A stretch of DNA of 46,189 bases, taken from positions 1-46,189 of IMG/VR virus record IMGVR_UViG_3300048922_000134; one strand, written 5' to 3'. How positions within the stretch are numbered: position 1 is the first letter of the stretch; each line of letters opens with the position of its first letter. Position numbers and translations under genes: made by a program. The stretch is from a virus. Below, one piece after another: positions 2,926 to 45,126 of this stretch. The notes beneath the pieces are model-generated. The model was not told where the DNA came from and ran no database searches. It saw only the letters and a program-made list of their open reading frames with translations.

Positions 2926-3951
2926 TTAATTTTTTTTAATCTTTATAATAGGTATGTCTAGTGATGGTGTGATTTTTATTTTTCTATCATATACAATCAC
3001 TTGATTTTCGGTCTTGTGTCCCGAAAATAATTGCTTATCCCTACTCGAACCTTCGTAATCAGAAATTCCTTTAGCTTTTATATCGTGAAAATTGCATCCA
3101 AACGGTACGCCTGATTTTTGTTCTGCTGCTCGTTTCGCATTGTTCCACCAGTTATTCAATGTTTTTGTTATTACTTTTCCGCCTTTGCTGGTGGTTATCA
3201 CAAATTCAGTATCAGAAGCGCTGGTATTGCGGGCTAATTGGATTGCAGAACGCAGACGTGGCGTCCATTCCTTAATCTGTTTTGCCCCAGTTTTGTTTTG
3301 CTCTATATAGAGGCCGGTATCCATAACTTCATTCCATCGCAGATCGAGCACGTCGCCCAGGCGTGCAGCACAAAGATATGAAATCTCCATTGCCACTCTT
3401 AGTGCTGGCGATGCTTCTTGATAAATCGCTGAATATTGCTCATCGGTGATATAAACCGTACGAGCCTTAGAGGTAAATTTCCTGACCCCTTTGCAGGGGT
3501 TACCCTTCACATAACCACGCTCGAACCCCCACCCATAGACACGGCTTAAACTTGCAAGCTCGTGGTTAGCTTGGGTCTTACTTTCTAATCCACGCTTATC
3601 CATGAAGATCCTTACTTGTTCAACCTTTACGCTATCAGCTCTTACTTTCCCGAAGACACTCAGTAATGCGCGTTGGTGTTGCCGGTAGTCTTTTTGAGTT
3701 CTTGGAGCTAATTCAGTAAACACAGGGCTTTCAAGAAATAGATTCCAAAGTTTTGCTACAGTCATTTGATCGTGCTGCTTTGCTTTAATGGCTTCATATT
3801 TTGCCCATAGTGCAGACATACTCGTACCTAGTATTGGGGCGAGTGTAATACACGTTTCATTCCCGTTTGGTTTCCAAATATAACTATATTTATTTTTATA
3901 TACCCTGGGAGGAAGTCGATTATCTTTGAAATATTTACGTGGTCTTCCCAT
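2926..3951 (-). CDS. int: Tyrosine-type site-specific integrase
   Basis: The 341-residue recombinase catalyses integration and excision between attP and the tRNA-Ser site. Catalytic positions are visible in order: R197 in AARLGD, a lysine around 220-224, H289 with K292 in HDIK (Lys replaces the commoner Arg of HxxR, as in several phage integrases), H312 in SGHKT and nucleophile Y321 in VYDRK. The N-terminal part (about 1-60) would bind arm sites and residues 60-155 are the core-binding domain. It overlaps the upstream DUF4224 gene by 17 bp and is the last gene of the leftward operon. Confidence 0.95.
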   Translation of the reverse strand: MGRPRKYFKDNRLPPRVYKNKYSYIWKPNGNETCITLAPILGTSMSALWAKYEAIKAKQHDQMTVAKLWNLFLESPVFTELAPRTQKDYRQHQRALLSVFGKVRADSVKVEQVRIFMDKRGLESKTQANHELASLSRVYGWGFERGYVKGNPCKGVRKFTSKARTVYITDEQYSAIYQEASPALRVAMEISYLCAARLGDVLDLRWNEVMDTGLYIEQNKTGAKQIKEWTPRLRSAIQLARNTSASDTEFVITTSKGGKVITKTLNNWWNNAKRAAEQKSGVPFGCNFHDIKAKGISDYEGSSRDKQLFSGHKTENQVIVYDRKIKITPSLDIPIIKIKKN

Positions 3952-4555: not shown

Positions 4556-4727
4556 TATTCCTTCCGGTTTCATTTTTCTGCTTTTCTTGATTCCAGGCTT
4601 TTTCCATAAATTCATTACTGAATTCCATTTCAGGGGCTTGAACAAAAGCGATATAAGCCTCTTCCTGGCAGTTCGTGCAGTAGCCTGATACTTTTCTGCA
4701 CCCACAATTTTCACAGTAATAGCTCAT
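4548..4727 (-). CDS. 59-residue Cys-rich protein, probable zinc ribbon
   Basis: Translation from ATG 4727 gives a protein starting MSYYCENCGCRK and continuing with GYCTNCQEE. The two CxxC pairs within the first 20 residues are typical of a zinc ribbon. Its ATG overlaps the TGA of the ParB-domain gene (ATGA), and its end overlaps the next gene by 8 bp, so it fits exactly into the operon. The tail is acidic and polar. Partner and function are unknown. Confidence 0.7.
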   Translation of the reverse strand: MSYYCENCGCRKVSGYCTNCQEEAYIAFVQAPEMEFSNEFMEKAWNQEKQKNETGRNNE

Positions 4728-5548
4728 ACTGCGGCCCTGCTGCGCTGCGCTTCTATGTCGCGCTGTTCAGTGATGATTTCCTGCACTTCGTTTAATAGCT
4801 CGCCTGAGAGCGAAATAGTGCCGCTCTCGTCGATTCCTGCAAGAGTGATAAGCTCAACCAAGCGGCGGGCTTTCTTAACACTGATTTCAGGTGCTATAAC
4901 GCTACGGGTTACTTTCTTTTTGCCAATGGCAGCAGCTTTGGCTTTATCTTTTTCCAGCACTTCCCCGGCCTTCTCACCGTGTTCTTTAACACGATCAACG
5001 GCAACAGCTATGGATACCTCCCCAGATTTAACCGCTTCCTGGACGTCATGATTTGCAACGCTTAGTGTCAAAAGGTTTTCAACCGTTGGGATTGCCTTGT
5101 GGACCAGCTTTGCGATTTCCGCCGTCGTCAGGTTGAATGCGGCAAGGTCACGAACAACCGCTGCTTGCTCAATAGTCGTGAGTGGTAGCTGATTATTCGA
5201 CGTCATGATGCGTGCAATGCGCTGCACGTCGTTTCCGGTGAATGGCACGATGTGGATACGGTCTACAGGCTTCCCGGCCTCACGGCAGCGCAGAAAGCAA
5301 CGCTGGCGGCGATGGCCTTCAACAATCCACACTCCGCCCTCATCACGGGGTATCACCTCAAGCGCCGGGACAACGCCGCCCGCCATCATGAAGGCGAAGG
5401 TGTCATCATCAGCGTTACGAGTACGTTCGTTATCTTCGCGGCGGTTGAAGTTAGGCCGAACGTGAATATCGTCGATAGAAATAAACATGCCGGTGTCAGA
5501 GCGTTTGATGATGCCGCCCTTGATCATTTTCTTAAATGAATTAGCCAT
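4724..5548 (-). CDS. ParB N-terminal-domain protein
   Basis: The 274-residue protein carries a ParB/Srx-type nucleotide-binding fold at about residues 20-130, with the motif VEGHRRQRC (GHRR at 78-81). A helical HTH-like region follows (about 110-180: TTIEQAAVVRDLAAF, then TTAEIAKLVHKAIPTVENLL). In plasmids such proteins bind centromere sites, and CTP hydrolysis drives clamp sliding. With no ParA gene nearby, a role in partition is unlikely; DNA binding linked to recombination or regulation fits the operon better. It couples to the zinc-ribbon gene by an ATGA overlap. Confidence 0.85.
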   Translation of the reverse strand: MANSFKKMIKGGIIKRSDTGMFISIDDIHVRPNFNRREDNERTRNADDDTFAFMMAGGVVPALEVIPRDEGGVWIVEGHRRQRCFLRCREAGKPVDRIHIVPFTGNDVQRIARIMTSNNQLPLTTIEQAAVVRDLAAFNLTTAEIAKLVHKAIPTVENLLTLSVANHDVQEAVKSGEVSIAVAVDRVKEHGEKAGEVLEKDKAKAAAIGKKKVTRSVIAPEISVKKARRLVELITLAGIDESGTISLSGELLNEVQEIITEQRDIEAQRSRAAV

Positions 5549-14373: not shown

Positions 14374-14973
14374 ATGGCACATATACATATAGTTAAAATC
14401 AATACTGAGTTACTGGCTCCGGCAACTGAAGAGGCCAGGATTTTCTTGCATCGCGTTAAACTTGGCGAGTGGATTCACGCCGATTTTAAACGAGTGAGAA
14501 ATTACCGCTTTCACAAGAAATTTTTCAAACTCCTGCAACTCGGTTTTGAATACTGGACACCGACAGGCGGCATGGTAACGCCTGAAGAATGTCAGTTTCT
14601 GGACGGGTTCATCGCATTCGTGTGTAAACGCGTTGGTGAGGGGCATAGCGCAGCATTTGATGAAGCAGCAAATCTCTATATCAACGAACAGTCAATTCAT
14701 CGGTCAAACGATACGGCGTTACTGAAAGATTTCGAAGCGTTTCGCGAATGGGTAACTGTCCAGGCTGGATACTTCACGGCGCATATTAATCCTGATGGTA
14801 GCCGCTGGCTCCGCGCAAAATCGATATCATTTTCAAATATGGATGAGTCCGAGTTTGAAGGGCTATATAAATCCGTTCTGAATGTGCTCTGGAACTACAT
14901 TCTTTATCAGAAATTTTCCTCTCAAACTGAGGTGGAAAACGTTGCGGCTCAGCTTCTGGAGTACGCAGCATGA
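14374..14973 (+). CDS. DUF1367 family phage protein
   Basis: The 199-residue protein has DUF1367 features: residues LGEWIHADFKRVRNYRFHKKFF near the N-terminus, then FEYWTP, a central helical part, and SRWLRAKSISFSNMDESEF near the end. DUF1367 genes lie beside NinX/YbcN-type genes in lambdoid phages, and their role in recombination or replication is not settled. ATG 14374 is chosen for its GGAG 7 nt upstream. It overlaps the next gene by 4 bp (ATGA). Confidence 0.85.
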   Translation: MAHIHIVKINTELLAPATEEARIFLHRVKLGEWIHADFKRVRNYRFHKKFFKLLQLGFEYWTPTGGMVTPEECQFLDGFIAFVCKRVGEGHSAAFDEAANLYINEQSIHRSNDTALLKDFEAFREWVTVQAGYFTAHINPDGSRWLRAKSISFSNMDESEFEGLYKSVLNVLWNYILYQKFSSQTEVENVAAQLLEYAA

Positions 14974-15272
14974 AGAGAAAAGCGGCAGACCTACGCAAAG
15001 CTGCACGCGGGCGCGAATGCACAATTCGCATCCCTGGCATCTGCAACCACAATCCTGATACATCATGTCTGGCGCATTACCGGCTGGCGGGTACTTGTGG
15101 TACCGGATGCAAGCCTGACGATGAACAGGGGGCTATTTCCTGTAATGCCTGTCACGACGTTATCGACGGGAGGGTTAAAACGACAGAGTTCAGTTATGAA
15201 GAGCTTCGGCTTATGCACGCCGAGGGGATCCTCCGCACTCAGTTAATCTGGAGAAAGGAGGGGCTACGATGA
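14970..15272 (+). CDS. ybcO: YbcO-like (DUF1364) putative nuclease
   Basis: The 100-residue protein has the DUF1364 pattern: ARGRECTIRIPGICNHNP, LAHYRLAGTCGTGCKPDD and CNACHDVIDGR. His, Asp and the Cys pairs form an HNH-like metal site, as in E. coli DLP12 YbcO. A DNA nuclease role in phage recombination is presumed. It overlaps its neighbours by 4 bp on both sides. Confidence 0.88.
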   Translation: MKRKAADLRKAARGRECTIRIPGICNHNPDTSCLAHYRLAGTCGTGCKPDDEQGAISCNACHDVIDGRVKTTEFSYEELRLMHAEGILRTQLIWRKEGLR

Positions 15273-15946
15273 ACGCTCAGCAGCTCGAGTATATTCGGAT
15301 TAAGCTTCGCCAGGCGCTGGTGGATGACTCAGGAAACACCAAAGGCCAGCTTGAGGCATTCGCAGAACACCCACCAGCTGATAAGAACCGCAATCCCCGC
15401 CAGCGTATTCATGTTGTAGAACTGGATAACGGTCGAGGGGGACTGAGAAGAGTCAAAGCCGAAAATACAGCCCTGTACGTGCTGGAGACGCGTAGTCGCC
15501 TCAGCCCGATGCCTCCGATAAGAGAAAAGGCCTTCTCTTCTTGTGCGTGGCGTCGAGCCGTTCTGGCGCTAAATGCCAGCCAGCAGGCCTGGCTGAAATA
15601 CTGCTATGGTTTTGATCTTCATTTCGGTTATCAGACTGAAATTTGTCGCTATATATGGAATAACTACGAAAGCGGTCTGGATGGTGCAAAGTTGCAAAAG
15701 AGGATTAAGCGCCGATTGATTTCCCTTGTGTGGCTGGCTGCGCAGGAAGTTGCGGCGAGGAACAACAACGACACATATAAAGAATATGCAGCCACGGCGT
15801 TAGCTAATTTTCTCTCTATTAATCGCGATACGTGGTATCAGACCTATGCTGAACCGTGGCGGGTTTTTAAGCTGCTGGCATCTGAACTGGATAGAAGGGG
15901 GTTATGTGATATTGGACTGATTTTAAAGATTGGCGAAAAAGAGTGA
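15269..15946 (+). CDS. Q: Late antiterminator Q
   Basis: The 225-residue product matches the antitermination protein Q family of DLP12 and phage 82-like elements. It has the N-terminal QQLEYIRIKLRQALVDDSGN and TKGQLEAFAEHPPADKNR, then ALYVLETRSR, WRRAVLAL and AWLKYCYGFD. Q binds a site near the late promoter and modifies RNA polymerase to read through terminators ahead of the lysis and head genes. It is the last gene of the rightward early operon. Terminators at 16611 and 17247 lie downstream, as expected for Q targets. Confidence 0.92.
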   Translation: MNAQQLEYIRIKLRQALVDDSGNTKGQLEAFAEHPPADKNRNPRQRIHVVELDNGRGGLRRVKAENTALYVLETRSRLSPMPPIREKAFSSCAWRRAVLALNASQQAWLKYCYGFDLHFGYQTEICRYIWNNYESGLDGAKLQKRIKRRLISLVWLAAQEVAARNNNDTYKEYAATALANFLSINRDTWYQTYAEPWRVFKLLASELDRRGLCDIGLILKIGEKE

Positions 15947-15948
15947 TA

Positions 15949-15977
15949 TTGCAAAACCCGACAATTTATGCCATATT
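15949..15977 (+). promoter_or_regulatory. Possible late promoter (pR')
   Basis: TTGCAA (15949-15954) and CATATT (15972-15977) are 17 bp apart just behind Q, where lambdoid late promoters lie. A second option is TTGATA (15989-15994) with TACTTT (16011-16016). Neither is a strong match, and no Q-binding motif can be identified by eye. Confidence 0.3.
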
Positions 15978-16055
15978 TAAGCCTAATTTTGATATGTTGT
16001 CATAATTACATACTTTTCAATACTTGGCGCTTAACATCGGCTTTTGGTAGCATAA

Positions 16056-16601
16056 ATGGAACAGCTTGAAACTGACTTCACAGCTCTTTTCACTGGTGGA
16101 GATATGCCCGAACCGCATGCGCGTTTGGCCATACTTCGTTTTACTACTATTTTTTCTCTTTATGAGGCTAAGCTTTGTAACTGTGAAGCGAAACAGAGTA
16201 GTTCTAATGATTATGCAAAAGAGTTTCTGCGCTCAGGGTTTAGCGATGTTGCGAAACTATGCGATGTTTTTCAACATTGCAAAAAACGCTATTTTCCCGG
16301 CGGTGAAGAAAGCTCAAAGTTTAAGAGCCTGTGTGGTTTCAGGAATGGTGGAAAAAAATCAGCCACACCGACAGAACTTAGGAATAGCATAACAGAGATT
16401 TTGCAACACCCCGAACCTACCATAGAAGATAAATTGACTGTGTGTTTGTTCTTTTGTTTTCGACTACGGAACAATTTATTCCATGGGCCAAAATGGAATT
16501 ATAATATAAACCATCAAAGTGAAAATCTTAATTTGGCCGCTGATTTGCTTTTATCTATATTGCTTGAGACAAAAGAAAAATCATGGAGTTTTTATAAATA
16601 A
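16056..16601 (+). CDS. HEPN-motif protein between Q and the lysis genes
   Basis: The 181-residue AT-rich gene ends in a helical region with FCFRLRNNLFHGPKW. R138-N-N-L-F-H143 fits the R-X4-6-H motif of HEPN ribonucleases, close to the ApeA-like HEPN type. Other conserved spots, such as acidic residues and Trp, cannot be judged alone. HEPN proteins often cut RNA in abortive infection or toxin systems. The gene has no antitoxin-like neighbour, is placed downstream of the late promoter, and is followed by a strong terminator, so it looks like an inserted accessory gene. Activity is inferred only. Confidence 0.65.
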   Translation: MEQLETDFTALFTGGDMPEPHARLAILRFTTIFSLYEAKLCNCEAKQSSSNDYAKEFLRSGFSDVAKLCDVFQHCKKRYFPGGEESSKFKSLCGFRNGGKKSATPTELRNSITEILQHPEPTIEDKLTVCLFFCFRLRNNLFHGPKWNYNINHQSENLNLAADLLLSILLETKEKSWSFYK

Positions 16602-16610
16602 TGGTATTCA

Positions 16611-16636
16611 AAACCCGCCATAAGCGGGTTTTTTTA
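16611..16636. terminator. Bidirectional terminator after the HEPN gene
   Basis: AAACCCGC (16611-16618) and GCGGGTTT (16624-16631) with a 5-nt loop, then a T run, form a rho-independent terminator. It also faces the leftward gene ending at 16655. Q-modified polymerase would be expected to read through on the way to the lysis cassette. Confidence 0.8.
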
Positions 16637-16654
16637 ATAAAATTGGCTTCATGA

Positions 16655-16918
16655 TTATTTTGTTGTTGCGCCTATTTGCTGCATTTTGCTGATTACCCGA
16701 TCCAGTTCTTCGGGTGTCAGGGCCAATTGTGCTGCCATATAAAACAGGATATGCGGCGACATAGCGCGAGGCGACTCCCCGCCGGTATACTTTCTCCACT
16801 GGCTATTACTCGCGACGCCAGCAAGGTCTGCCATCTGGTTCCCTGTATATCCCAGCTCATCTTTCAAGCGGTTGAGATCATCAGGTGAAGGTGGCGTGTA
16901 ATCGTTAATTAATCGCAT
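16655..16918 (-). CDS. Small HTH-like regulator, reverse strand
   Basis: The 87-residue protein has a helix-turn-helix-like region, DDLNRLKDELGYTGNQMADL then AGVASNSQWRKYTGGES, about residues 13-48, resembling XRE-type regulators. Its C-terminal helix (about 60-85) may dimerise. It lies antisense to the late operon between Q and the holin, a common place for such genes in enterobacterial prophages. It is likely expressed in the lysogen from its own promoter. Target unknown. Confidence 0.65.
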   Translation of the reverse strand: MRLINDYTPPSPDDLNRLKDELGYTGNQMADLAGVASNSQWRKYTGGESPRAMSPHILFYMAAQLALTPEELDRVISKMQQIGATTK

Positions 16919-16930
16919 ATATCGCCTTTT

Positions 16931-16954
16931 AAAAAAAAGCCCCTTTCGGGGCTT
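16931..16954 (-). terminator. Leftward terminator of the small membrane protein gene
   Basis: Read on the minus strand, AAGCCCC, loop GAAA and GGGGCTT are followed by eight T. The stem lies 5-30 bp behind the stop codon at 16959. Confidence 0.85.
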
Positions 16955-16958
16955 CTTG

Positions 16959-17135
16959 TCAGAAAAATTTGAGTAGCACTGTCGTTATGGTAGCTACTGC
17001 ACCGATTAAGCTGGTTGCTACTACTATCGGATACCAAGCTGATTCCCGGTTCAGTTTAGATGTTTCAGCAATCAGCTTTGCAATCTCTGCGTTAACTTTT
17101 GCTAATTCTGCCTGAGTCATTTCAGCGTTGCTCAT
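16959..17135 (-). CDS. 58-residue membrane protein antisense to the late transcript
   Basis: From ATG 17135 (AAGAA 3-7 nt upstream) the protein has a polar, coiled-coil-like first half (MSNAEMTQAELAKVNAEIAK, then LIAETSKLNRES) and a hydrophobic second half (about 36-56, IVVATSLIGAVATITTVLL). It is a tail-anchored small membrane protein. It is transcribed against the late operon from its own unit, with a strong terminator. Similar genes occur near prophage lysis cassettes. Superinfection or lysis control is a guess. Confidence 0.65.
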   Translation of the reverse strand: MSNAEMTQAELAKVNAEIAKLIAETSKLNRESAWYPIVVATSLIGAVATITTVLLKFF

Positions 17136-17246
17136 ATGTTCTTCCTTTCGGGTTCGGGCTGCGGCCTTTCCGCTACCTCATGTGATTAATAATAGCCCCT
17201 TTGGTGCTAGCTGTCAATCTCAGAAAGATAAAAAATTCACCAATTC

Positions 17247-17267
17247 CCGCATCAGTGCGGTTTTTTT
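17247..17267 (+). terminator. Rightward terminator before the lysis cassette
   Basis: CCGCA, loop TCAG, TGCGG and seven T (17247-17267) make a short but typical terminator. Placed between Q and the holin, it is a candidate for the stop that Q must override. Confidence 0.6.
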
Positions 17268-17373
17268 GTTCTCAGACTCTCGGGATCATCATCGATGCGC
17301 TTCGTTGTTAAATCCAGCCCGAAGTGTCTGACCCTCTATAACTACAGCGCCATCCGTCTATCGGAGGTGGGAC

Positions 17374-17589
17374 ATGTATCGAATGGACAAACTTACAACA
17401 GGAGTTGCCTACGGAGCATCAGCAGGCAATGCGGGATTCTGGTTGCTGCAACTACTCGACAAAGTATCTCCTACGCAATGGGCGGCTATTGGCGTTCTCG
17501 GGAGTCTGGTTTTTGGATTACTGACGTATCTGACGAATTTATATTTCAAAATTAAAGAAGACAGGCGGAAAGCCGCCAGGAGGGAATAA
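17374..17589 (+). CDS. Phage-21-type pinholin with dual start
   Basis: The 71-residue protein closely resembles S of phage 21 and EssD of DLP12: [40 protein letters not shown] and a basic C-terminal tail ([13 protein letters not shown]). Two transmembrane helices are seen, the first a weak, Gly/Ala/Ser-rich signal-anchor-release helix. ATG at residue 1 and ATG at residue 4, with Arg between them, reproduce the dual start that yields antiholin and pinholin. It forms small membrane lesions that depolarise the cell and activate the SAR endolysin. Confidence 0.93.
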
Positions 17590-18086
17590 TGTCTCCGGCA
17601 TTTCGGAAAACCGTTCTTGCGGCGGTCAGCGGTGGGGCGATTGCTATAGCTTCAGCACTAATCACAGGCACTACCGGTAATGATGGCCTTGAGGGTGTTC
17701 GGTATGAGCCTTACCGTGATGTTGTTGGCGTTTGGACGGTCTGCTACGGGCATACAGGAAACGACATCATACAAGGAAAGACATACACAAAAGCCGAGTG
17801 TGACGCCCTGCTGAATAAAGACCTGGCTTTAGTAGCTCGCCAGATTGATCCGTTCATTCAGAAACCAATCCCAGAAGCAATGCGCGGGGCGCTGTACTCA
17901 TTCACCTATAACGTTGGTGCGGGAAATTTCAAATCCTCAACACTGCTACGCAAAATAAACCAGGGTGACATGAAAGGTGCTTGCGAACAGCTTCGACGCT
18001 GGACATATGCAGGAGGAAAACAGTGGAAGGGACTGATTACCCGGCGCGAGATTGAACGGGAGGTGTGCTTGTGGGGGCAGGAATGA
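17589..18086 (+). CDS. SAR endolysin (lysozyme-like muramidase)
   Basis: The 165-residue enzyme is of the R21 type, glycoside hydrolase family 24. The N-terminal helix (about 8-28, rich in Ala, Gly, Ser) is the signal-anchor-release segment exported by Sec without cleavage. The catalytic triad E35, D44, T50 is present in [20 protein letters not shown], with C52 available for disulfide control. It cleaves peptidoglycan once released by membrane depolarisation. It overlaps the holin by 1 bp. Confidence 0.95.
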
Positions 18087-18427
18087 AGTGCGTAATAGTT
18101 CTTTCTGTTGCGGTTTGGATTACGGTTATCGTCCTTTCGTGGCGGGCTGGCTGGAACTCCCACGCTGAGCACGTAAACGCCATGGCGGCAAAGAAAAGAG
18201 AAGAGGCCGAAAAATCAATACAGCAGGTTGAGAAAAAAGCTGCTAACGCTACTGAAACCGGAAAGGTCATTTACAAAACAATAACCCGTGACGTGGTGAA
18301 ATATGTACAGACTCCGAATCGCACTGTGTGTCAGTTTGATAGTCATGCTGTGCAGTTGCGCCAGCGTGCAATCGACGCTGCCAACACCATCCCCGGATTT
18401 GATGAATCCTCCTTGCAGGGCCAGTAA
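18083..18427 (+). CDS. Rz: Rz-type i-spanin
   Basis: From ATG 18083 (ATGA overlap with the endolysin) the 114-residue protein has an N-terminal transmembrane helix (about 3-20, [17 protein letters not shown]) and a charged periplasmic coiled coil (about 35-70). It anchors the inner-membrane half of the spanin complex that disrupts the outer membrane in the last step of lysis. An upstream start at 18065 has no support. Confidence 0.88.
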
Positions 18428-18542
18428 TGCTGGAAACAATTCCGACGAGGATTTGCAGGCCGATATTGAAACGGCTGAATGTCTGCGACAATTGCGATTA
18501 GACAAATACCGCTGGCAGGCCTACTACAAGGCCATTATCTGA
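18303..18542 (+). CDS. Rz1: Rz1-type o-spanin lipoprotein, nested in Rz
   Basis: A second frame inside Rz encodes a 79-residue protein with a lipoprotein signal: positive N-terminus, hydrophobic core and lipobox LCS|C near residue 18. A Pro-containing mature start ([14 protein letters not shown]) follows. This overlapping arrangement is typical of lambdoid Rz/Rz1. It runs past the Rz stop for 115 bp. Its long Asp/Glu-rich tail is longer than most Rz1 proteins. Confidence 0.85.
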   Translation: MYRLRIALCVSLIVMLCSCASVQSTLPTPSPDLMNPPCRASNAGNNSDEDLQADIETAECLRQLRLDKYRWQAYYKAII

Positions 18543-18892
18543 AATGGGTAATCGATCATATGTGCATCTATTTCGCCGATTATGAAAAATCAGAAAGTGG
18601 CCTGAAGGGGTTTTTTGAGTCTGGGATTTGAAGTGTGAGGATTTTCGGCATTACAGAAGGCCTTCCCAGCGAGGGGCTTCGATAATGCAAAGCTGTTGGC
18701 AGTTTCCCACCGCGTACCTAGCGCTCAATTTTTGACAGCTTTTTTATTATGCAGATGAGAAGAAAAGGAAGAATGGGCGACCGCCGGCAGCTTGGACCCT
18801 GCCGACAGTCATCATACCCATAGAGCAGGTCATGAGTATAACCGAGGCCCACCAGCTCTCGAGAGCCGGGCCAGTTTACGCAGGTTTGAGCC
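18543..18892. other. Gene-free gap before the terminase region
   Basis: No convincing gene is present; the longest frames are about 20 codons and without ribosome sites. A TTGACA hexamer occurs at 18732-18737 but without a well-placed -10 box. This is where cos or pac sites of related phages lie, but no known site is recognised. Confidence 0.5.
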
Positions 18893-19528
18893 GTGACTGA
18901 ACAAAAAATTTCTATTCGTTATCTTGAGCGCTCAAAATTAAAACCGTTTGAGCGCAACGCGATGATCCATTCCGATGCTCAGGTGGCACAGATTGCAGCC
19001 AGTATTGAAGAGTTTGGATGGACAAACCCGGTTTTGATTGATGAGAACAGCGAAGTGATTGCTGGGCATGGTCGGCTGGCTGCAGCCGAGTTGCTGGAGA
19101 TATTTTCGATACCAACAATCACCCTTCGTGGCCTGACTGACGCACAAAAGCGTGCGTATCGCATTGCAGATAATAAATTGCCGCAGGGCGCAGTATGGGA
19201 CGATGCGTTACTGAAGGCTGAGCTTGAATCATTGAGTGCGGAAGGATTCGATCTGAATCTGACGGGCTTCAACGATTTTGAAATCGGTTCTATGAAAGGG
19301 GATGCAGGGGATATTCCTGGCGAGCACTGGATCGGAATGCCCGAGTTTGAGCAGGAAGAAAAGCAGGGAGTTAAACAGCTTATCGTGCACTTCGAAACAG
19401 AAAGTGATGTTCACGCGTTTGCTGAACTGGTAGAGCAGACCATTACCGATAAAACGAAGTATATCTGGTACCCGGCTAAGGCGAGGGAACGTCTCAAAGA
19501 TAAGGTGTATCTCAGCGATGAATCCTAA
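18893..19528 (+). CDS. ParB/Srx-domain protein next to the glycosyltransferase
   Basis: The 211-residue protein begins at GTG 18893. Its N-terminal 80 residues form a ParB/Srx-like fold with the motif EVIAGHGRLAAAELL (GHGR 58-61), preceded by a beta-strand unit (PVLIDE). The rest is helical with a basic C-terminus. ParB/Srx domains bind nucleotides, and in phage gene sets they often accompany DNA-modification enzymes or methylases. It overlaps the next gene by 11 bp. No ParA partner is present, so plasmid partition is unlikely. Confidence 0.85.
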   Translation: MTEQKISIRYLERSKLKPFERNAMIHSDAQVAQIAASIEEFGWTNPVLIDENSEVIAGHGRLAAAELLEIFSIPTITLRGLTDAQKRAYRIADNKLPQGAVWDDALLKAELESLSAEGFDLNLTGFNDFEIGSMKGDAGDIPGEHWIGMPEFEQEEKQGVKQLIVHFETESDVHAFAELVEQTITDKTKYIWYPAKARERLKDKVYLSDES

Positions 19529-20390
19529 GTTCCCCCTCTACATCGTCAGCAAAGGGCGCTGGGAAAGCCGATTGACGGCTAAAACACTTGAGCGCCTGCA
19601 GGTACCGTATTTTATCGTTATTGAAGAACAGGAATACGCGCAGTATTCAGCGGTTATCGATAAAGAAAAAATACTGGTTCTGAATAAAAAATATCAACGT
19701 GATTACGACACATTTGATGAGCTTGGACTGACTAAAAGCGTCGGCCCTGGCGCAGCGCGTAACTTTGTATGGGACCACTCAATCGCTGGTGGTTATCCGT
19801 GGCATTGGGTGATGGACGATAACATTCGTGCGTTCTACCGGTTGCACAAAAACAAGCGTTTGAGGGTTGGTGACGGGACGATATTCCGCTGTATGGAAGA
19901 TTTCGTTTTGCGTTATGAAAATGTCGCTATGGCGGGACCGAATTACTACATGTTCGCGCCTGACAGACAAAAATGTCCTCCGTTTATCACGAATACACGG
20001 ATTTATTCCTGCAATCTGATTCGTAATGATTCGCCGTTCCGCTGGCGCGGCCGTTACAACGAGGATACGGACTTATCTCTGCGTATGTTGAAGGCTGGCT
20101 GGTGCACTATCCAGTTCAATGCTTTTTTGCAGAATAAAGTTGCGACTCAAAAAATCAAAGGTGGGAACACTGCTGAGTTTTATGCTCAGGAAGGGACCTA
20201 TAACAAATCCCGAATGCAGGTCGAAATGCATCCTGATGTGTCTAGGATGGTTTTTAAATTCGGCCGGGTACATCACCACGTTGACTATTCGCGGTTTAAA
20301 TCTCTCCGGTTACGTTTACGTTCTGATATTCAAATCACCGATGGAGCAGACAACTACGGAATGGTTCTGAAAGAGAACTATACGGAGTAA
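19518..20390 (+). CDS. GT-A-type glycosyltransferase, TET/JBP-associated-like
   Basis: The 290-residue protein has features of a GT-A fold enzyme: an N-terminal PLYIVSKGRWESR nucleotide-binding start, the metal-binding motif WVMDDN (D100, D101) and the acidic motif RYNEDTDLSLRMLKAG (NEDTD 181-185). I recall this pattern from the TET/JBP-associated glycosyltransferases (TAGT), proposed to add sugars to modified DNA bases. No TET/JBP or other hydroxylase is visible here, so the acceptor is unknown. The close coupling to a ParB-domain gene suggests a two-gene module placed just before the terminase. Confidence 0.75.
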   Translation: MNPKFPLYIVSKGRWESRLTAKTLERLQVPYFIVIEEQEYAQYSAVIDKEKILVLNKKYQRDYDTFDELGLTKSVGPGAARNFVWDHSIAGGYPWHWVMDDNIRAFYRLHKNKRLRVGDGTIFRCMEDFVLRYENVAMAGPNYYMFAPDRQKCPPFITNTRIYSCNLIRNDSPFRWRGRYNEDTDLSLRMLKAGWCTIQFNAFLQNKVATQKIKGGNTAEFYAQEGTYNKSRMQVEMHPDVSRMVFKFGRVHHHVDYSRFKSLRLRLRSDIQITDGADNYGMVLKENYTE

Positions 20391-20392
20391 TC

Positions 20393-20647
20393 ATGTTCGA
20401 TCGGCAAAAAGTGCAGGTTTTAGCTGCTCGCCGTCTAACCGAGCAGCAAATTGCGGATGTTCTGGAAATCGACCTTCAGGAACTGAAACAAAACAGGGAT
20501 GAGCTTTCCAGTTTCCGGAAAGAAATCAGGATAGGCAGAGCGAAAAGCGAGGCTGAGTTACGAGGGGCTTTGTATAAAAAAGCGAAAAGTGGCGATGTAG
20601 GTGCTTACCATGAATTACTGAGGCGTGAAAAGGATAGTGACCCATGA
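20393..20647 (+). CDS. Small HTH protein upstream of the terminase
   Basis: The 84-residue protein has a helix-turn-helix-like pattern in RRLTEQQIADVLEIDLQELK (about 14-33), then a charged helical segment and GALYKKAKSGDVGAYHELLR, as seen in small DNA-binding helpers of terminases. It overlaps the next gene by 4 bp (ATGA). Its role may be in DNA recognition for packaging; this is inferred from position. Confidence 0.65.
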   Translation: MFDRQKVQVLAARRLTEQQIADVLEIDLQELKQNRDELSSFRKEIRIGRAKSEAELRGALYKKAKSGDVGAYHELLRREKDSDP

Positions 20648-21663
20648 GTAAACCGGAAGAGGGCAACCTGGAGCGTGATTATTGTGCCGGCGTTCTCTCT
20701 CTCCGGGATCTCGGGAAGAAGTACGGAAAGACGGAAGGCGCAATAAGGAAGCAGGCTAAAAAAAACGGCTGGGTACGCATAAAAAAAAACGGTACGCAGG
20801 TACGCAAAAACGGTACGCAAAAAAAGGACCGCGTACCGGTCATTGCACCTGATGACCGAGCATCAAAAGATAGGGCGATTTCCCCTGGAGGTAGAGACAT
20901 AGATCAGGAAGAAAGTTTTTCCTTTGATCCTGATGAATTCGGACTCACAGAGAAAGAATCCAGATTTGTATTTTACTTTTTAAAAACAGGAAATCGTGCA
21001 GAAGCATATCGACAAGCTGGCTACGAGGGAAAGGGCAATACAGCCTATGTAGAAGGCAGTCGGATGTATCGAAAACCTAAGATTTCAAAAGCTATCCGTT
21101 ATCTGAAAGAACGGTTTCGTAAACGCTATACCGCAGATATAGATGAACTTGTCGATCAACTGATGGCTATCATCCGCGCCGACCCGAACGACATCGCCTT
21201 CTATCGGCGTGTTAACTGTCGTTACTGCTGGGGCGAGAATCATCTTTATCAGTGGCGTGACATTGCAGAGTTCGATAAAGCGGCGGAAGCGGCAAGCAAG
21301 GAAGGGAAAGAATCACCGGAATATGGCGGTCTCGGATTTGTTGATGTGATGGATCCGAATCCTGATTGCCCCCGATGCTATGGAGAAGGAAAAGGACAAA
21401 TGCACATCAACGATACCAGGGATCACGAAGGTCCAGAAAAACACCTGTTTGCTGGGGTAAAGCTCGGAAAATTCGGTATTGAAATACTAACCGAAGATAA
21501 AAAAGCGGCGCGGCAATTACTGGCCCAGTTGATAACGAAATTCGACCTGGGCAGCAATTCAGAAAACGTCCCTCGGAGCCTTAACGATTACTATGCAGAT
21601 ATTAGAAAGACCAAGCCTGAATCCGGCGCTCAGGGAATTCTGGGAGACGCAGGCGAGGAATAA
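20644..21663 (+). CDS. Terminase small subunit with zinc-ribbon insert
   Basis: The 339-residue protein is a Terminase_2-like small subunit. It starts with an HTH (LRDLGKKYGKTEGAIRKQAK), then a linker of KNGTQ repeats, then the core LTEKESRFVFYFLKTGNRAE with AYRQAGYEGKG, and the pattern KPKISKAIRYLKERF. A CRYC...CPRC pair (about residues 193 and 239) is an inserted zinc-ribbon-like unit, longer than the typical small subunit. It binds the packaging site and regulates the large subunit. It overlaps terL by 71 bp. Confidence 0.85.
   Translation: MSKPEEGNLERDYCAGVLSLRDLGKKYGKTEGAIRKQAKKNGWVRIKKNGTQVRKNGTQKKDRVPVIAPDDRASKDRAISPGGRDIDQEESFSFDPDEFGLTEKESRFVFYFLKTGNRAEAYRQAGYEGKGNTAYVEGSRMYRKPKISKAIRYLKERFRKRYTADIDELVDQLMAIIRADPNDIAFYRRVNCRYCWGENHLYQWRDIAEFDKAAEAASKEGKESPEYGGLGFVDVMDPNPDCPRCYGEGKGQMHINDTRDHEGPEKHLFAGVKLGKFGIEILTEDKKAARQLLAQLITKFDLGSNSENVPRSLNDYYADIRKTKPESGAQGILGDAGEE
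20772..20819. repeat. Four GGTACGCA repeats inside the small terminase gene
   Basis: GGTACGCA occurs at 20772-20779, 20791-20798, 20799-20806 and 20812-20819, separated by A-rich runs. They encode the KNGTQ repeats. Short direct repeats inside the small terminase gene resemble pac-type recognition sites in headful phages. Alternatively they are simple protein-coding repeats. Confidence 0.45.
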
Positions 21664-22975
21664 AGTTTTGGTTGGCGGCCGTTCATCATCCAAGTCGTGG
21701 GATGCTGCTGGCATTGCGACGTTCATGTCTGATAACTACCGACTTCGATTTTTATGTACCAGACAGATTCAGAACAAAATCGATGAGTCCGTTTATGCGC
21801 TACTGAAAATTCAGATCGAGCGCTTTGGATTACGCCATCGCTTCAGAATTCTTGATAATAAAATAATCAATCGATATACGGGGTCGGAATTTATTTTTTA
21901 TGGGCTGTGGCGACACATTGAAGAAATAAAATCGATTGAAAGCGTTGATGTTCTCTGGAATGAAGAGGCGCACGGCATGACCGCCGGACAATGGGAGATT
22001 CTGGAGCCTACGATAAGGAAAGAAGGATCAGAGTGTTGGTTTATATTTAACCCCCGGCTGGCGACTGATTTTGTCTGGAAAAACTTTGTCGTAAACCCGC
22101 CACCTGATACGTTGATCAGAAAAATAAATTACGACGAAAACCCTTTCCTCAGCGACACAATGATAAAGGTCATCGAGGCTGCAAAGCAGCGAGATCCAGA
22201 GTTATTCGAACACATTTATCTAGGGGTGCCTAATACCGATGATGATGATTCAATAATTAAACGTTCGTGGATTGAAGCGGCTGTTGATGCTCATAAAACG
22301 CTAGGGTTTAAGGCTGAGGGGCGCGGGCGTCTTGGGTTTGATGTTGCTGATAGCGGTAAGGATAAATGCGCTAATGTTTACGCTCGCGGTTCTGTGGCTC
22401 TATGGGGCGATGAATGGAAAGCTGCTGAAGATGAGTTAATGAAAAGCTGTAAGCGGACTTTTAATGCGGCGCTTAAATACGATTCAGAAATCATCTATGA
22501 CTCAATAGGCGTCGGAGCATCCAGCGGTTCAAAATTTAAAGAAATAAATGAGGACCGTCGCCAAAAGGAAAGATTTGCTAAACAAATCGAGTATCACAAA
22601 TTTAATGCTGGTGATGGAATTTTTCAGCCTGACAAAATTTATCAACCCGGTATTCGCAACAAAGATTTTTTCTCAAACCTTAAAGCGCAGTCCTGGTGGC
22701 TGGTAGCAGACCGTTTTCGTAACACGTTTAATGCTGTTAAACGCGGGGAAGTTTATCCGACCGACGATCTGATCAGTATCGACAGTGATTTCCCATTACT
22801 GGAGAAGTTGAAGGATGAGCTATCGGCACCGAAGCGTGATTTTGACAAAAACGGACTTGTGAAAGTGGAAAGTAAGGATGATTTGGCAGATCGAGGCATA
22901 CCGTCACCAAACATTGCAGACGCGTTCATCATGGCTTTCGCTCCGGTAAAAACGAGGCGGAGCGTATTTGGTTAA
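21593..22975 (+). CDS. terL: Terminase large subunit
   Basis: The 460-residue PBSX-type packaging motor has Walker A GGRSSSKS (28-35), Walker B VDVLWNEE (118-125) and a C-terminal RNase H-like nuclease with FDVADSGKD, IYDSIGVGAS and NIADAFIMAF acidic residues. It uses ATP to pump DNA into the prohead and cuts the concatemer. Lower GC than the head genes that follow, it sits at a composition break. It starts inside terS, 71 bp before its stop. Confidence 0.95.
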   Translation: MQILERPSLNPALREFWETQARNKVLVGGRSSSKSWDAAGIATFMSDNYRLRFLCTRQIQNKIDESVYALLKIQIERFGLRHRFRILDNKIINRYTGSEFIFYGLWRHIEEIKSIESVDVLWNEEAHGMTAGQWEILEPTIRKEGSECWFIFNPRLATDFVWKNFVVNPPPDTLIRKINYDENPFLSDTMIKVIEAAKQRDPELFEHIYLGVPNTDDDDSIIKRSWIEAAVDAHKTLGFKAEGRGRLGFDVADSGKDKCANVYARGSVALWGDEWKAAEDELMKSCKRTFNAALKYDSEIIYDSIGVGASSGSKFKEINEDRRQKERFAKQIEYHKFNAGDGIFQPDKIYQPGIRNKDFFSNLKAQSWWLVADRFRNTFNAVKRGEVYPTDDLISIDSDFPLLEKLKDELSAPKRDFDKNGLVKVESKDDLADRGIPSPNIADAFIMAFAPVKTRRSVFG

Positions 22976-44334: not shown

Positions 44335-45126
44335 ATGCAAATAATTTACCCAAGTGATTACTTTAATCTGAATAGAGTTGATGAAAATTATGAGGATGAA
44401 TTCAACTGTGCAAGTGATAACGGAGTAAAATGTGTTTTGCTATCATCACAGCATTTATTAGATAGCAAAATTAAACTTTCAGGAAACCTTGAGGCGCATG
44501 CGCCAGTTATTTGGCGAGGCTGGATGCTTAAACAGAAAGAATATAAAACATTATACAATACTGTTAAAAGCCATAGTGCGGAAATGTTAGTTTCTCCTGA
44601 TGATTACGCTTCTTGCCACTATATTACGGGCTGGTACGGAACATGTAGTGATTATACACCTGAAACTATTTTACTTACTGAGAATGATGATTTCGAAAAA
44701 ATTACATCCCGATTAAAATGGCCTTCATATTTTGTTAAAGACTATGTTAAATCACTTACGACATCGCGTGGTTCGATAGCGAAAAATGCCGAGGAAATAC
44801 AGGGGATTTTAGCCCATATTAAACAATATCGCGGAGAAATAGAGGGTGGTGTCGTGCTTAGAAAGGTTGAGGACCTAAAACCCGAAACAGAACGTAGATA
44901 TTTTTCATTCTATGGAAATGTCTACTCTGCTGATGATGTTATCCCTGCTATTGTTCATGAAATAGCGAAGCATATAAGCTCCCCTTTTTTCTCAATAGAT
45001 ATGGTTGAGACAGCTTCATCCAATCTTCGTTTGATCGAAATCGGCGATGGGCAAGTTTCAGATATTAAAGAATGGGACGTCCAAAAATTCGTTAAGATGA
45101 TTGTAAAGGCCAGCGTGTCTGGATGA
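44335..45126 (+). CDS. ATP-grasp domain protein (DUF4343/R2K-like)
   Basis: The 263-residue protein has APVIWRGWMLKQKEYKTLYN, a central SYFVKDYVKSLTTSRGS lysine-containing strand of the ATP-binding grasp, GGVVLRKVEDLKPETERRYF and a C-terminal FSIDMVETASSNLRLIEIGD with the metal-binding acidic and Asn residues. I recall the R2K ATP-grasp clade, DUF4343, which makes amide bonds and occurs in predicted tagging systems. The gene lies in the right chromosomal flank and its low GC suggests an accessory island. Confidence 0.75.
   Translation: MQIIYPSDYFNLNRVDENYEDEFNCASDNGVKCVLLSSQHLLDSKIKLSGNLEAHAPVIWRGWMLKQKEYKTLYNTVKSHSAEMLVSPDDYASCHYITGWYGTCSDYTPETILLTENDDFEKITSRLKWPSYFVKDYVKSLTTSRGSIAKNAEEIQGILAHIKQYRGEIEGGVVLRKVEDLKPETERRYFSFYGNVYSADDVIPAIVHEIAKHISSPFFSIDMVETASSNLRLIEIGDGQVSDIKEWDVQKFVKMIVKASVSG

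Follow-up and report, generated by a model that had tools for sequence, protein, structure and literature searches.

A ParB/Srx-Domain Protein Paired with a TAGT-Family Glycosyltransferase in Tailed Phages: A Candidate DNA Base-Glycosylation Cassette

Introduction

What does a phage glycosyltransferase modify when its gene overlaps that of a ParB-domain protein? The question is raised by the viral record IMGVR_UViG_3300048922_000134, which was analysed over its whole length of 46,189 bp (hereafter, the window). Phage DNA glycosylation as such is known, and so is the PF20691 (TAGT) family of glycosyltransferases. TET/JBP-TAGT base-modification systems, in which the PF20691 transferase is predicted to modify DNA, were reportedly described by Iyer et al. 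in 2013. Among 753 transferase-bearing phage genomes, 288 have a solitary TAGT homologue, the function of which was called undefined (PMC13216743). The homologue from Aeromonas phage Aeh1 is already known as a presumed DNA modifier, being listed as presumably DNA-modifying with the base unknown and with Iyer 2013 cited (PMC8056088). In the literature searched, no paper describes a ParB-TAGT pairing or the MPEF domain defined below, and none links ParB, a glycosyltransferase, and DNA hypermodification. With respect to that literature, the new points are the pairing of TAGT with ParB, the MPEF domain, the interchangeable partners of ParB, the lack of known acceptor-making genes, and the distribution in E. 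coli.

Results and Discussion

Genomic Setting of the Gene Pair

The window contains integrase, Q antiterminator, lysis, terminase, and portal genes, and from these it is read as a temperate tailed phage or prophage. The relatives of the window transferase in cellular genomes that are closest to it come from Pantoea (80% identity) and Erwinia (79%). The pair is located between the lysis and terminase genes; its features and neighbours are as follows.

15269..15946, +, Q-type antiterminator (PF06323, 5.9e-36), which places the cassette in the late region
18893..19528, +, ParB/Srx-domain protein, 211 aa, GTG start, first cassette gene
18893..19303, +, ParB/Srx domain, aa 1-137, motifs GHGR (58-61) and ADN (92-94); a domain that elsewhere occurs fused to DNA methyltransferases
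19304..19525, +, C-terminal MPEF domain, aa 138-211 (W-x-gMPEF ... KTKxIWYP), boundary approximate, apparently TAGT-specific
19518..19528, +, 11-bp overlap of the ParB and TAGT genes; among homologous loci, this apparent overlap is also the most frequent one
19518..20390, +, TAGT-family GT-A glycosyltransferase (PF20691), 290 aa, ATG start
19815..19823, +, DDN motif codons (aa 100-102), invariant in 107 homologues
20058..20069, +, NEDT motif codons (aa 181-184), putative catalytic segment; all 107 homologues retain N, E, and D, and 105 retain T
20393..20647, +, 84-aa TerS/HTH-like small ORF, conserved at this position and shared with Rac-type prophages of E. coli (55% identity)
20644..21663, +, terminase small subunit TerS (PF03592, 3e-23)
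21593..22975, +, terminase large subunit TerL (PF04466, 4.8e-37)

A first-pass annotation of the window had placed a ParB-domain gene and a GT-A glycosyltransferase gene at 18893-20390, overlapping by 11 bp and lying directly before the terminase. Both genes were recovered (a PHROG profile and a ParB/Noc/Srx-like model for the first, PF20691 and a GT-A model for the second), and the overlap of 18893-19528 with 19518-20390 is exact. The pair does precede TerS and TerL, but the 84-aa ORF intervenes.

The Glycosyltransferase

The 290-aa protein matched PF20691 over its full length with 154.1 bits, against a curated cut-off of 27.5. Its predicted model has a GT-A fold (mean pLDDT 89.9), and GT-A structures matched this model at Z 12-14 in Foldseek/VIA structure searches. 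On the profile and the predicted fold with a DXD-type motif, the protein is assigned to the TAGT family. The DDN motif presumably represents the DXD-type nucleotide-sugar/metal site. Residues D100, D101, N102, N181, E182, D183, H252, and H253 are invariant in the 107 homologues, and T184 was found in 105/107. Both the DDN and the NEDTD motif pointed out earlier are present, and DDN and NED are invariant, but the fifth residue of the latter (D185) is not conserved among these homologues. When PDB sequences were searched with the TAGT profile, no match was obtained, and no TAGT match was found in the plasmid collection. The TAGT tree was used for identities only: most of its forks are unresolved, T6 is placed on an extremely long branch, and the Kuja32 row is mistranslated.

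The ParB/Srx-Domain Protein and the MPEF Domain

The 211-aa protein belongs to the ParB/Srx superfamily. It is matched by phrog_620 (E=4e-52); PF02195 scored 23.4 bits, slightly under the cut-off of 26.3, and a PADLOC type II methyltransferase model covers the ParB part (E=1.1e-32). The alignment-based model of the ParB domain resembles Noc/ParB first, followed by free serine kinase (SerK) and sulfiredoxin (Srx), and the profile search with this domain retrieved Noc/ParB at 3e-11. No Pfam match to the HTH parS-binding domain was found after ParB_N in the 211-aa protein, its place being occupied by the C-terminal domain; a partition (ParABS) ParB was rejected on this ground.

The C-terminal domain, for which the name MPEF was coined in this analysis, is a conserved block (residues ~138-211) separate from the ParB domain in the alignment. 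Its predicted structure is of low confidence (pLDDT ~50-90 over residues 140-211, pTM 0.58). In phages of Aeromonas, Pectobacterium, Tenacibaculum, and Vibrio, MPEF is fused to the TAGT N-terminus without ParB; for Aeromonas, the phiAS5 locus was inspected and the Aeh1 group was covered by search. The Aeh1 ORF087c group shares the TAGT clade (55-57% identity) and MPEF with the window, but there MPEF and the transferase form one chain, ParB is lacking, and, as seen in phiAS5, no terminase is adjacent. Two loci show complete or partial fusions of the cassette: L025 encodes ParB, MPEF, and glycosyltransferase in a single chain preceding a second TAGT, and in L047 a partial TAGT-like segment is fused to ParB-MPEF.

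With the ParB-domain alignment as bait, at least 80 ParB loci were fetched. MPEF was present in 8 of 80 such loci among the matches listed, all eight also with TAGT, and it was not found in methyltransferase or Mom loci among these 80. From this distribution, MPEF appears to be specific to the TAGT clade of the window. In phiAS5 (L082 3894-4094) and POP12 (L086 3852-4031), the MPEF-TAGT fusion is immediately followed by a small ORF that bears a second MPEF-like domain.

Conservation of the Pair

When viral contigs were scanned with the transferase alone, 80 of 175 relatives were kept, and 24 were added from cellular genome contigs. Upstream DNA was sufficient in 93 loci, which are called informative. 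ParB with MPEF was found directly upstream of TAGT in 75 of them; ParB was located within 2.5 kb upstream in 5, MPEF without ParB occurred in 10, and neither was present in 3. After dereplication at 90% identity, ParB was retained in 56 of the 67 informative clusters, these counts being limited by the redundancy and fragments of IMG/VR and by the use of short patterns to find relatives. By gene order, the ParB and TAGT genes are a conserved two-gene unit in many phages.

ParB Partners and the Proposed Function

Among the 80 matches listed, ParB was fused to an N6/N4 DNA methyltransferase at 38 loci (fusion in 38/38), stood directly next to TAGT at 16, with 3 more at a distance of up to ~2 kb, and adjoined Mom at 9. 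A C5-methyltransferase, a separate N6/N4-methyltransferase, and TET/JBP were represented among these matches by single loci; ABC-ATPase/GNAT proteins were found at a few, and some had no assigned partner. The gene order in Psychrobacter phage Y8A, ParB-Mom-TerS-TerL, parallels the ParB-X-TerS-TerL order of the window. One phage contig carries a compact module (L177 5001-8204) composed of ParB, a TET/JBP oxygenase, a P-loop protein, a T6-like glycosyltransferase, and again ParB, the last similarity being a weak one (4e-07). In addition, 1660 ParBc proteins have been reported near the DNA carboxymethyltransferase CmoX in CmoX-bearing contigs, where the role of the domain was called unknown (PMC12783734). 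A TGT/DpdA-like TIM-barrel transglycosylase of ~300 aa, seen by eye as a ParB partner at L135 2657-3562 and L187 800-1669, was discarded, having neither Pfam nor PDB support.

Judged by these families, the recognisable partners in the ParB slot are mostly DNA-base modifiers, and this is the main argument that the TAGT substrate would also be DNA. With its overlapping genes and the fusions of its relatives, the window pair would fit among the ParB-linked phage DNA-base modification cassettes, TAGT being the putative base modifier. The ParB/Srx domain is shared with ParB-N6/N4 methyltransferase fusions, ParB-Mom, and ParBc-CmoX, the chemistry of which is methyl, Mom-type acyl, or carboxymethyl, whereas that of the window would involve a sugar. 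The earlier suggestion of a DNA base-modification gene set is well supported by this context, in which ParB is coupled to methyltransferases, Mom, TAGTs, and a TET/JBP module.

The pair therefore probably attaches sugars to DNA bases. In the proposed scheme, a late, horizontally exchanged cassette would encode a TAGT that glycosylates a phage DNA base with a nucleotide-sugar as donor, a ParB/Srx domain that may act as an NTP/DNA-handling subunit common to many different phage DNA-base modifiers, and MPEF as a putative adaptor joining the two. Through expression together with the late genes, the pair would label the DNA of the phage ahead of packaging and could thereby provide restriction resistance in the next host. 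Several loci contain candidate tailoring genes, located between ParB and TAGT or just behind them: an FkbM-type methyltransferase (L030-L033), a radical SAM protein (L013 and L121, also L034, where ParB was not detected), an NAD-dependent epimerase with a second TAGT (L056), and a phosphatase/cytidylyltransferase (L180). Their presence is consistent with the building of decorated or extended sugars.

The GT-A fold is also common to many protein and polysaccharide glycosyltransferases, which weighs against a DNA base as the target, and protein glycosyltransferases are among the nearest Foldseek/VIA neighbours of the transferase model. Moreover, RefSeq names some of the homologous E. coli cassette transferases 'GREB1-related', and for eukaryotic GREB1 a protein glycosyltransferase activity has been reported. 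The transferase might accordingly glycosylate a virion or host protein, with ParB merely a DNA-binding or regulatory neighbour. We consider this unlikely: the same ParB domain swaps among DNA methyltransferases, Mom, and TET/JBP, the fused and overlapping arrangements point to a single substrate class, and PF20691 members with assigned activity modify DNA (PMC13216743, PMC13390438). Between DNA and a virion protein, which the first-pass annotation had offered as alternatives, the gene context supports DNA, and nothing found favours the virion protein.

One large group of solitary TAGTs gains from this analysis a conserved partner, a putative adaptor domain, and replaceable partners pointing to DNA. 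If the pair does glycosylate DNA, sequenced phages and widespread prophages may hold an undiscovered DNA modification with possible bearing on restriction, CRISPR, and type IV defence.

The Acceptor Base

Those TAGTs for which an activity has been demonstrated or assigned use a hydroxylated base or one that is glycosylated already. The earlier remark that the window encodes no base oxidase holds at the profile level, there being no PF12851, PF00303, or PF00145 match, and neither PF11440 nor PF09198 (primary alpha-/beta-glucosyltransferase, GT-B) was found among the window proteins scanned with Pfam. Profile searches of 47 TAGT contigs (the window and 46 related viral contigs) revealed no PF00303 hydroxymethylase and no TET/JBP (PF12851); many of these contigs are fragments, and the negative result is firmest for contigs of 30-50 kb. 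As positive controls, the PF00303 search detected T6 gp42 and the TET/JBP search detected the contig of L177. A C5-methyltransferase was encoded in 4/47 contigs. In phiAS5, Kuja, and henriette, one PF00303 gene each was found and read as thymidylate synthase, whereas T6 additionally shows gp42; PTm1 has a second, weak PF00303 match. The lack of hydroxymethylase and TET/JBP genes in the 47 contigs suggests that the acceptor is made differently, is unmodified, or is not DNA. Candidates are a base without modification, a base that a host enzyme or an unrecognised enzyme has modified, or, with lower probability, a non-DNA molecule.

Two known systems can be compared in this respect. The TET/JBP-TAGT systems also use a PF20691 transferase, and the L177 module combines TET/JBP with the same ParB family, but no oxidase is encoded in the window or in the 46 related contigs. 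The T2/T6 beta-glucosyl-HMC-alpha-glucosyltransferase is likewise a PF20691 protein with a predicted GT-A fold, and its role in T2/T6 DNA glycosylation has been assigned (PMC13216743, PMC13390438). This enzyme acts on alpha-glucosyl-hmC and its gene in T6 lies beside that for dCMP hydroxymethylase, the enzyme of the T-even hmC pathway that has no counterpart in the window (no PF00303). The T6 protein is only remotely related, with 37 bits to PF20691 and no match to the window-clade profile.

By analogy with T6, the window enzyme could perform a second step, glycosylating a base that a host enzyme or the product of an unrecognised gene has modified beforehand. The T2/T6 PF20691 enzyme does add a second glucose (PMC13216743), its gene in T6 adjoins the hydroxymethylase gene, and four of the 47 contigs encode a C5-methyltransferase. 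This reading is, in our estimate, improbable, given the missing hydroxymethylase-like and TET/JBP genes in the 47 contigs and the single PF00303 genes of phiAS5, Kuja, and henriette; furthermore, ParB accompanies TAGT in 80/93 loci, yet no common primary enzyme does.

Under the preferred reading of a sugar transferred to a DNA base, the pair may even glycosylate a base that bears none of the known hydroxymethyl/hydroxyl handles. The transfer could be direct, for example at an exocyclic amine, the site of action of the methyltransferases and Mom that take the place of TAGT beside ParB, or it could follow an activation by the ParB/Srx domain. This proposal is a tentative one. If true, it would represent a new kind of DNA base modification, present in prophages of about one-sixth of complete E. 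coli genomes and in many other phages.

Position and Mobility of the Cassette

The terminases downstream of the cassette belong to several families (Terminase_6, TerL_ATPase, Terminase_3, and GpA). Between the window and locus L002, positions 14515-20631 are 97.8% identical, and the homology ends just before TerS; with L003 and the Pantoea locus L089, the homologous block around the cassette comprises 18980-20578. The transferase gene does not adjoin the terminase in T4-like, Tenacibaculum, and Vibrio phages. The cassette thus moves independently of the packaging genes. Since homology stops before TerS and the terminase families vary, no mechanistic tie to packaging is needed, and a specific packaging role was rejected. 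The idea of a module acting at the packaging step, put forward in the first pass, is unsupported in view of the unrelated terminases, the homology break at 20631, and the non-terminase loci. More simply, the region from the lysis to the packaging genes can be seen as a site for late-gene cassettes. A promoter scan gave no excess over shuffles; late expression of the cassette is suggested by gene order.

That two small accessory genes at an insertion-prone site are unrelated chance neighbours, ParB being a partition or nuclease protein, is highly improbable, given that they are adjacent and mostly overlapping in 75/93 loci of many phage types, are fused in L025 and L047, and that the 211-aa protein has no HTH parS-binding domain.

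Related Cassettes in E. coli Prophages

Rac-type prophages of E. coli carry a divergent ParB-TAGT cassette at the same site, and trkG frequently lies upstream of it. Its ynaK and 'GREB1-related' genes are followed by an 83-aa ORF and TerS, as at the homologous site of the window. Identities to the window were 26% for TAGT, 53% for the ParB domain, 55% for the small ORF, and 47% for TerS; besides the low TAGT identity, the E. coli version differs in that the ParB C-terminus is not MPEF. The E. coli cassette, covered to at least 80%, was present in 885 of 5,426 complete genomes (~16%). Among sequenced temperate E. coli phages, vB_EcoS-613R10 (ON470590) is one that has the cassette. The ynaK gene of K-12 is truncated: it is an 87-codon remnant of the E. 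coli ParB start followed by unrelated sequence. This gene, annotated merely as encoding a ParB/Srx-domain protein, thereby gains a likely origin. In L213 (2921-3712), RefSeq lists ynaK as a 'partial' pseudogene (258 nt), yet the ORF there is intact and encodes 263 aa. In several E. coli genomes, annotated CRISPR arrays match the E. coli ParB-TAGT cassette (L119 2929-4812) over short stretches, at its positions 255-288 and 887-925, as if spacers targeted it.

Other Genes of the Window

Four further observations were made in the window. A NA37/YejK-like 37-kDa nucleoid-associated protein and a 403-aa protein without a Pfam or PADLOC match are encoded at 577-2834, between tRNA-Ser (270-357) and the integrase (2926-3951, -), and are possibly an accessory or defence pair. 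A 181-aa protein between Q and the lysis genes (16056-16601) has no Pfam match and contains RLRNNLFHG, which by eye resembles the HEPN RNase RxxxxH motif. Near the right end, past the tail-collar protein, an R2K-clade ATP-grasp enzyme (44335-45126; PF14243, 1.6e-11) is a possible protein-modifying enzyme. The early region encodes a second ParB-related protein (4724-5548, -) with an HTH_ParB domain (PF17762, 3e-07).
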